Source: Halorubrum trapanicum (GTDB taxonomy: Archaea > Halobacteriota > Halobacteria > Halobacteriales > Haloferacaceae). From it: 64,000 nt of DNA. Under the pieces are notes generated by a model. The model was given only the letters and a program-made list of their open reading frames with translations. It did no database searches and was not told where the DNA came from. The position numbers and the translations under genes are program-made. The stretch is taken from positions 558,001 to 622,000 of the forward strand of contig NZ_AP017569.1 of the NCBI RefSeq assembly GCF_002355655.1, given 5' to 3'. Each line of letters opens with the position of its first letter. The first letter of the stretch is position 1. Of this stretch, positions 22,608-23,376 are shown piece after piece.

Positions 22608-22892
22608 TCACTCCCCGCCGTAGGGGTACCGCGCCGTCGCCCCGCACTCCAGGCAGCGGACGACCACGCGACCGGGTCGCGTCCGGACGCGGCTCGTCCT
22701 TCCGGGCCGGAGGTAGACGGCGCAGTCGTCGCAGGCGCGCCTGGAGAGCTCGGAGGGAACGCCACAGCGGTTGCGCTCGGCGATGCGGCGGGCGCGGGCG
22801 ACGTACTCGCGGGCGCGGTCGTACTCGTCGTCGACGACCGCCTCGCGGGCGAGGGCGAACAGCCGCTCGATCCGCTCCGACGGGATGCCCAT
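22608..22892 (-). CDS. rnp4: ribonuclease P protein component 4
   Basis: The 94-residue protein is archaeal Rpp21/Rnp4, a protein cofactor of RNase P, which removes tRNA 5' leaders. It has the N-terminal helical part (RIERLFALAREAVVDDEYDR, then EYVARARRIAERN) and a zinc ribbon with two Cys pairs (RRACDDC and RCLECGATARY). Its short length fits the family. It ends 21 bases from the stop of the phosphatase gene, which converges on it. Confidence 0.93.
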   Translation of the reverse strand: MGIPSERIERLFALAREAVVDDEYDRAREYVARARRIAERNRCGVPSELSRRACDDCAVYLRPGRTSRVRTRPGRVVVRCLECGATARYPYGGE

Positions 22893-22986
22893 GTCACGGA
22901 GGGCGGCGCGCGGCGGCAAAGAGGTTGTTATCCGGAGCGGTCGATCCCGCGGGGCCCTCCGTTCAGACGTTCCGCGAGCGGCGCCG

Positions 22987-23304
22987 TCAGGACTCGCGCC
23001 ACTTGTGGCCGCACTCGACGCAGGTGAACAATCGGACCTCGTAGGAGCCCCCCGGCTTCGGCAGCATCTCGTAGCGGGCCCGGTCGCCGTCGCAGCCGTC
23101 CGCCGGACAGGGCTCCCGCGTCGTCTCGGCGGAGCCGTCCGTCGCGTCGGCCACGGCGGGCGCCCCGTCGTCCCGTTGCGCGTCCCGCGTCGCCATCGCC
23201 GCCTCGTCTCCCGAGTCACGCGGCTCCTCGCTGTCGCAGGAGCGACACACCCACGCGTCCCCCTTGGCGTACATCGTCGACCCGCACTCGTCACAGAACC
23301 GCAT
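22987..23304 (-). CDS. transcription factor S-like protein (TFIIS/RPB9-related)
   Basis: The 105-residue protein has an N-terminal zinc ribbon (MRFCDECGSTMYAKGD, WVCRSCDSEEPRDS), an acidic linker and a C-terminal ribbon (CPADGCDGDRARYEM, TCVECGHKWRES), as in archaeal TFS, which rescues stalled RNA polymerase. In the C-terminal hairpin the acidic Asp-Glu needed to stimulate transcript cleavage aligns with Gly86-Ser87, so it may not cleave. It could be an RPB9-like or paralogous factor. It lies divergent from the Trm112-like gene. Confidence 0.88.
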   Translation of the reverse strand: MRFCDECGSTMYAKGDAWVCRSCDSEEPRDSGDEAAMATRDAQRDDGAPAVADATDGSAETTREPCPADGCDGDRARYEMLPKPGGSYEVRLFTCVECGHKWRES

Positions 23305-23362
23305 AAAACCGACGTACGCGGACGGGTGACAAATACGTTAGCTTCCGAGCCGCCGCGACCCG

Positions 23363-23376
23363 CACGCTTTTTTATC
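23363..23376 (+). promoter_or_regulatory. TATA box of the Trm112-like gene
   Basis: The run CGCTTTTTTATCGG ends about 22-27 bases before the ATG at 23398, the spacing of a leaderless promoter. Confidence 0.6.

Follow-up and report, generated by a model that had tools for sequence, protein, structure and literature searches.

A mobile transcription factor S paralogue of haloarchaea that lacks the catalytic acidic pair

In TFS and TFIIS, two carboxylates are delivered by the tip of a hairpin into the active site of RNA polymerase. Factors of RNA polymerase are normally inherited vertically. The DNA analysed here, a stretch of 64,000 nucleotides from Halorubrum trapanicum that is referred to as the window, carries a gene for a TFS-like protein in which an earlier note, made from the sequence, had found the acidic dipeptide missing. 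The locus raises the questions of what a TFS-like protein without these residues may do at the polymerase, and of how its gene came to lie at this position. The features of the gene and its surroundings are collected in Table 1.

Table 1. Features of the TFS-like gene and its surroundings in the window
Feature	Position	Strand	Basis and remarks
Coding sequence of the TFS paralogue, cleavage-dead	22987-23304	-	105 aa, ATG start; open reading frame, profile matches and alignment A1
N-terminal zinc ribbon core, residues 1-24, Cys4/7/20/23	23233-23304	-	profile match, alignment A1
C-terminal zinc ribbon, residues 66-105, Cys66/71/95/98	22990-23109	-	alignment A1, conservation count
Hairpin tip P82-K83-P84-G85-G86-S87-Y88-E89-V90-R91, in place of the catalytic Asp-Glu tip	23032-23061	-	alignment, comparison of copies
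Promoter-like block of about 60 bp upstream of the gene, which it accompanies in relatives	23305-23365	-	window copy degenerate
Gene-bearing stretch without counterpart in 12 other Halorubrum genomes	22936-23354		ends of the insertion approximate

The TFS-like protein and its hairpin tip

The protein encoded in the window keeps all eight zinc cysteines (residues 4, 7, 20, 23, 66, 71, 95 and 98), and both zinc ribbons are intact, as the earlier note had stated. It resembles archaeal TFS (TIGR01384) in its two linker-joined Cys4 zinc ribbons, which are a feature of TFS, in its length, and in the N-ribbon and the body of the C-ribbon. In alignment A1, which comprises 40 sequences, the N-ribbon, the C-ribbon body and the C-terminal CGHKWRE segment are of the haloarchaeal TFS type. 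The differences from archaeal TFS are Gly-Ser in place of Asp-Glu, a hairpin that is one residue shorter, a profile score below the cut-off, and a gene that is mobile and patchy in its occurrence. Residues 1-31 matched the Pfam model Zn_ribbon_RPB9 with 43.3 bits, above the cut-off of 25.2, while the NCBIfam model TFS_arch (TIGR01384) aligned residues 2-104 with 39.3 bits against a cut-off of 64.75. The latter cut-off is not a clean divider, because a Halorarius TFS with Asp-Glu scores 63.9 bits and also falls below it. An AlphaFold model of the protein has two ribbons and a hairpin with strands at residues 75-81 and 90-95; strong structural inference from this model was dropped because it is too weak at the tip (pLDDT 63 for the tip block) and in the domain arrangement (pTM 0.39).

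The haloarchaeal catalytic tip in A1 reads R-A-A-D-E-S-E-T-R-F, and the corresponding residues of the window protein are K83-P84-G85-G86-S87-Y88-E89-V90-R91-L92, the part ahead of K83 being shorter by one residue. G86 occupies the column of the catalytic Asp and S87 that of the Glu, and the hairpin is one column shorter than that of TFS-A and is without Asp-Glu. The loss of the acidic dipeptide is confirmed by this alignment, as is the placement of Gly86-Ser87 at the acidic positions in the earlier note; the catalytic motif in haloarchaea is ADE, however, and not GDE as had been supposed there.

The tip was compared among 165 copies of the gene that are distinct by protein and 200-bp flanks and that were picked by the motif YE[VF]R, a choice by which variants at these residues would be missed. 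The sequence PKPGGSYEVR was found in 161 copies, PKPGGSYEFR in two, and PEPRGSYEVR and PKPGGAYEVR in one each, and none of the 165 has an acidic pair at the tip. E89 is not a substitute for the lost pair, because it is conserved in the window type and in catalytic TFS alike. When 173 distinct proteins of 98-112 aa were sorted by type, none was left unclassified.

Among 164 distinct coding sequences, residues 82-91 of the tip have 0.3% non-consensus residues against 10.6% for the whole protein, while silent variation in the tip codons (11.7%) is similar to that overall (10.3%). When two N-terminally broken copies were dropped, the values for non-consensus residues were 0.31% and 10.27% (162 sequences). 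Since the tip is near-invariant in spite of the usual silent variation of its codons, the new tip has not decayed and is under strong selection at the protein level. The median pairwise dN/dS for the whole protein is 0.22 (83 sequences), and the value between the window copy and its nearest relative is about 0.15.

A search of the same genome returned two further TFS genes, both of which encode Asp-Glu and exceed the TFS_arch cut-off. The protein of C1:202697, which is of the TFS-A type, is 46% identical to the window protein and has the tip RAADESETRFF (77.7 bits), and that of C1:2204161 is 31% identical and has the tip GAADEPPTRFF (74.9 bits). The suggestion that haloarchaeal TFS may work differently is ruled out by these two genes, which answer twice over the question of the earlier note whether a second TFS with the acidic pair is present; haloarchaeal TFS is therefore not simply different in mechanism. 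A TFS-A match was found in all 30 carrier genomes searched (E 1e-24 or better), and the acidic pair is held by all 32 TFS-A partners compared, that of the window genome included. The product of the second gene (L003, G000:C1:2204161-2204478) is a divergent TFS whose tip, ADEPPTRFFKC, contains the acidic pair. A second TFS match is frequent in relatives too, and two such sequences were inspected.

Insertion, distribution and descent of the gene

The gene in the window lies between genes that we take, from their sequences, to encode an RNase P component 4-like protein (rnp4) and a Trm112-like protein, and it is an insertion of a net length of about 360 bp. Fourteen Halorubrum genomes, drawn from 52 with a match, were aligned at this position. 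The insertion is present in the window genome and in H. sodomense and is absent from the other 12, in which the intergenic segment of 184-252 bp contains a short unalignable spacer, compared to 566 bp in the window. Four genomes without an insertion at this site (G102, G176, G201 and G206) carry a copy of the gene elsewhere. The gene for the cleavage-dead TFS has thus been inserted at this position. Directly downstream of it on the same strand, at 94 bp, follows the gene for the RNase P component 4-like protein (22608-22892, minus strand), into which read-through from the inserted gene is possible.

In an all-against-all comparison of ORFs from 80 loci (the best 80 of 86 relatives from a pattern scan), no neighbour family was shared by more than 9 loci; ORFs overlapping the gene, which include antisense and out-of-frame artefacts, were set aside. 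Six annotated plasmid regions, from 25 matching records, likewise have no neighbour in common, and a conserved operon or a defence-island partner is unsupported by these two comparisons of neighbours. The gene moves alone, as a solitary gene. Similarity between loci typically starts 45 to 70 bp upstream and stops within about 25 bp past the stop codon, and in a few loci it extends to about -215 and +370. The upstream part includes a promoter-like block at about -45 with the consensus CGGAAGTTAACACATATATCCG. Of the 165 copies, 139 differ from this consensus at no more than 6 of 22 positions and the window copy differs at 7; a control stretch never fell below 9 mismatches. In 65 of the 165 copies, CGGA and TCCG arms surround the TATA-like block about 45 to 24 bases before the start, and these arms are a possible operator. 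Downstream of the gene, some units (L053:4320-4690) have decayed remains of what looks like a small membrane protein, of which L252 has an intact version.

Among 391 genomes of the class, every one of which has some TFS match, 130 have full-length matches of the window type (135 among the matches listed, E 3e-43 or better). Five genomes have two copies, and the listed copy in G102 has a frameshift near the C-terminus. Within Halorubrum, 15 of 46 genomes have a full-length match and one more has a partial match. In a phylum-wide sample of 246 genomes, a fragment of the C-ribbon matched 17 genomes at E 1e-8, of which 16 have the window type and one (G036) has ordinary TFS alone; all 17, a statement that covers the matching genomes alone, belong to the same order or are closer. 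The window-type clade is confined to haloarchaea in the samples searched. A near-invariant, cleavage-dead TFS that moves alone is accordingly found in a third of the sampled haloarchaeal genomes.

The copies sit at unrelated sites, on chromosomes as well as plasmids. Matches were obtained in 25 plasmid records, 18 of which have a window-type copy of 73-79% identity, annotated as 'DNA-directed RNA polymerase subunit M', 'DNA-directed RNA polymerase' or 'RPA12/RPB9/RPC11 RNA polymerase family protein'. A search of 50,697 phage records at E 0.01 gave no match to the window protein, nor did a scan of viral contigs with short peptide patterns of it, by which close relatives alone are detectable; a virus- or phage-borne gene is unsupported by these searches. 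Frame-broken copies occur in several genomes (L116, L120, L127 and L130), so that loss follows gain. The plasmid pNRC200 of Halobacterium salinarum (L269) has an N-terminal fragment only, with residues 1-52 matched, among transposases.

A tree of 121 proteins, which has few columns for its number of rows and is without Sulfolobales rows, places all 77 window-type rows on one side of one branch (SH-aLRT 100). Window-type proteins form a single clade. The catalytic TFS-A rows need two changes in this tree and fall into two groups, and the row nearest to the window clade is the TFS-A of Halorarius, with a placement support of just 64. The N-terminally broken copy L115, which was extended upstream in frame for the tree, has a long branch and still falls in the window clade. 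The cleavage-dead paralogue is likely to have arisen once in haloarchaea, with TFS as the likely parent family. A window-type gene and a catalytic TFS gene stand in tandem in Halorarius (L111:4001-4724) and in G130 (L118:2218-2925), which suggests an origin by tandem duplication, and these tandems are likely to be a relic of the founding duplication.

Silent divergence was compared with that of TFS-A from the same genomes (32 genomes, 15 genera). Between genera the median is 0.279 against 0.482 for TFS-A, or about 0.6 times as much, and it is lower than that of TFS-A in 429 of 440 pairs, which are non-independent; within genera it is 0.252 against 0.322 and lower in 40 of 56 pairs. A looser count, which takes every pair with a non-Halorubrum genome and includes some pairs of the same genus, gave lower values in 443 of 460. 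The gene is patchy in its distribution and has been transferred horizontally.

Transposon ends around the gene

Mobile insertion cassette is the term for a transposase-free, IS-ended unit that carries cargo. At a threshold of up to 4 mismatches in each end and agreement in 6 or more of the 8 duplication bases, five of the 165 copies (L057, L062, L063, L084 and L379) lie between a pair of such ends. L062 and L063 probably go back to a single insertion, which leaves four independent cases, and L379 has a weak left end. With shuffled ends, 30 trials yielded 0.03 pairs on average and never more than 1. The unit around the gene in L057 measures 628 bp, its inverted ends being identical over 13 bases (GGCTCTGTTGAAA) and its flanks being GACGAAAT and GATAAAAT; that in L084 measures 837 bp and is flanked by AAAAAGGA and AAAAAGTG. 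Units of these sizes are too small for a transposase beside the gene. The other 160 copies, that of the window included, have no end pair at this threshold, and an exact target duplication around the gene was found in none of the 165, the best being 7 of 8 bases (L062) and the other four pairs having 6 of 8. Single ends with at most 2 mismatches numbered 19 (11 outward, 8 inward) against a shuffled mean of 0.5 and a maximum of 6. At 3 mismatches, 19 outward and 7 inward ends were counted in 107 copies, against shuffled totals of 0 to 9.

The IS5-type end itself, CTGTATCTCGCACG followed by TTTCAACAGAGCC at near-fixed spacing, is real: of 292 genomes, 17 have it, at 20 places altogether, and a reversed control matched none among the genomes listed. 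A left end is in reach for 11 of the 20 places, and five of these 11 have exact 8-bp duplications and other cargo; at least one of the others (L276) has a transposase-like ORF. The five (L271, L279, L282, L287 and L288) are mini-transposons with IS5 ends, exact 8-bp target duplications and ordinary cargo genes. We take the cargo of two of them, at different sites, to be a transporter-like protein of 334 aa, and that of the others to be two membrane proteins (99 and 217 aa) and a hydrolase-like protein (285 aa). An intact IS5-family element of 1569 bp with an exact 8-bp duplication, ATACGAAG, lies close to a copy of the gene, at a distance of about half a kilobase (L053:4841-6409); it has the cassette-type terminal repeat, and its transposase belongs to the IS5 family (206.8 bits, cut-off 140). 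An IS6 identity of the inverted ends was found to be wrong, as this element with such ends encodes an IS5-family transposase. The sequence TGTATCTCGCACG was ruled out as the terminal repeat and is a subterminal part of the IS5-type ends.

Carriage of the gene as cargo between IS5-type transposon ends is therefore partly shown, for a few copies, and transposition of the cassette type is a supported yet incomplete explanation of its movement. A MITE of the ISH2 type, about 520 bp long and with an ORF that is not a transposase gene, has been described (PMC3119063). The few units found here are like MITEs of this type with an ORF, and like mobile insertion cassettes, in being transposase-free with IS-type inverted ends, and are unlike ISH2-type MITEs in that the ends are IS5-family-like, with the terminal repeat GGCTCTGTTGAAATCC, and in that the cargo is an RNA polymerase factor.

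The possible role of the protein at the polymerase

The reading that we favour, with moderate confidence, is that of a mobile, cleavage-dead TFS paralogue that binds the polymerase and either antagonises TFS or slows the polymerase. Since the parts for docking are kept and mainly the tip and the linker are changed, competition with TFS together with a brake on the polymerase would be the simplest reading, and because the acids are replaced by a near-invariant tip in a gene that hops by itself, the protein probably binds the polymerase to restrain it and not to cut RNA. The N-ribbon and the linker would dock the protein on RNA polymerase, and the C-ribbon would enter the secondary channel or funnel as that of TFS does. 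The protein would then compete with catalytic TFS, and its tip, having no carboxylates, would be unable to support RNA cleavage. Instead, the Lys-Pro-Gly-Gly-Ser-Tyr tip would modulate the active site, so that transcription is slowed, or polymerases that have paused or backtracked are held. For the host or the element the protein may serve as a conditional brake, for instance during stress or infection, and the gene would spread as a solitary, self-promoted unit. That the tip is fixed speaks for a specific contact and against mere loss, and the prediction is that the Lys-Pro-Gly-Gly-Ser-Tyr hairpin makes a specific contact in the polymerase funnel.

According to the available text of PMC5715097, replacement of both acids of TFS1 by alanine leaves no cleavage and impairs processivity, and a swap of the hairpin tip alone turns TFS1 into an inhibitor. 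TFS4 has a shortened hairpin tip with two to three lysines, and inhibitory activity is absent from the TFS4-AAA mutant (PMC5715097). TFS4 is located in the funnel, where the trigger loop is displaced (PMC8448823). The window protein is like the RNA polymerase inhibitor TFS4 of Sulfolobus in being a TFS paralogue in which the acids are lost and the hairpin tip is shortened. It is unlike TFS4 in having no lysine cluster (the tip has one lysine, K83, and not two to three), in being encoded by a solitary mobile gene for which virus induction is not known, and in its separate origin, the window clade lying beside or within haloarchaeal TFS-A in the tree without Sulfolobales rows. Inhibition is not implied by the fold alone, because the tip has one lysine and TFS4-AAA is inactive as an inhibitor. 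A polymerase-binding inhibitor, one of the possibilities raised by the earlier note, appears to be the most likely mechanism, although the defining lysine tip of TFS4 is absent. If this is true, the protein would be, besides Sulfolobus TFS4, another cleavage factor that was repurposed, independently and with a different tip and mobile inheritance.

Independent multiplication of tfs-like genes in Halobacteria is described in PMC5715097, and the window clade may be among these genes. The diversification of TFS is reviewed in PMC7289017, the available text of which makes no mention of a window-type protein, and no study of such a protein was found among the papers listed for rpoM, polymerase subunit M and the TFS paralogues of haloarchaea, a search in which subscription journals are mostly uncovered.

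A wider proposal, which we put forward tentatively, joins the protein to its carriage: a mobile cargo module of promoter and polymerase-binding antagonist between IS5-type ends would alter the way in which a new host handles pausing and backtracking, and could be an antiviral transcription brake or a device that helps the element.

The earlier note had also considered an RPB9-like subunit, which would bind stably to the jaw or lobe and tune elongation or fidelity without inhibition, as RPB9 does in RNA polymerase II. The best PDB sequence matches of the window protein are RPC10/C11 and RPB9, and RPB9-type subunits of Pol I, Pol III and Pol IV take the top ranks for its model in Foldseek, where TFS4 (7oqy_Y) is at rank 17 (E 3.9e-3). 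The two-ribbon architecture without cleavage acids is shared with RPB9, which is also without cleavage activity (PMC5715097), and more generally the RPB9/RPA12/RPC11 subunits have two ribbons. Such matches reflect shared ancestry, however, and are not decisive on function. Unlike these subunits, the window type is not universal in its lineage and is additional to two TFS genes of its own genome; a mobile gene in 130 of 391 genomes is not a constant component of the polymerase and fits a constitutive subunit poorly, and the near-invariant tip indicates action at a specific contact. An accessory subunit of this kind is considered unlikely.

Slightly less probable is a global shut-off factor of the TFS4 type, normally silent and induced by virus or stress, which would halt RNA polymerase and growth. 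The architecture, the lost acids and the hairpin that is one residue shorter in A1 are matching, and the gene is patchy in the manner of a defence gene, for which TFS4 itself is the precedent (PMC5715097, PMC8448823). The lysine cluster is absent, however, and the NCBIfam TFS4 model TransFacS4 gives 28.4 bits against a cut-off of 120. The upstream block, conserved with 6 or fewer mismatches in 22 positions by 139 of the 165 copies, resembles an ordinary TATA promoter and therefore does not suggest tight silence.

It is very improbable that the protein has left RNA polymerase and that its zinc ribbons serve another contact with nucleic acid or protein: the fixed tip is wholly unlike that of TFS, but the N-ribbon, the C-ribbon body and the CGHKWRE segment are still of the haloarchaeal TFS type, and the nearest branch is TFS-A, with a support of only 64. 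The least credible explanation is a selfish passenger without host function that is sustained by transposition alone and decays in place, as a solitary mobile gene with broken copies (L116, L120, L127, L130) and an N-terminal fragment on H. salinarum plasmids might suggest, since the dN/dS of 0.22, the near-invariant tip with its silent variation and the conserved promoter-like block indicate that the encoded protein matters.
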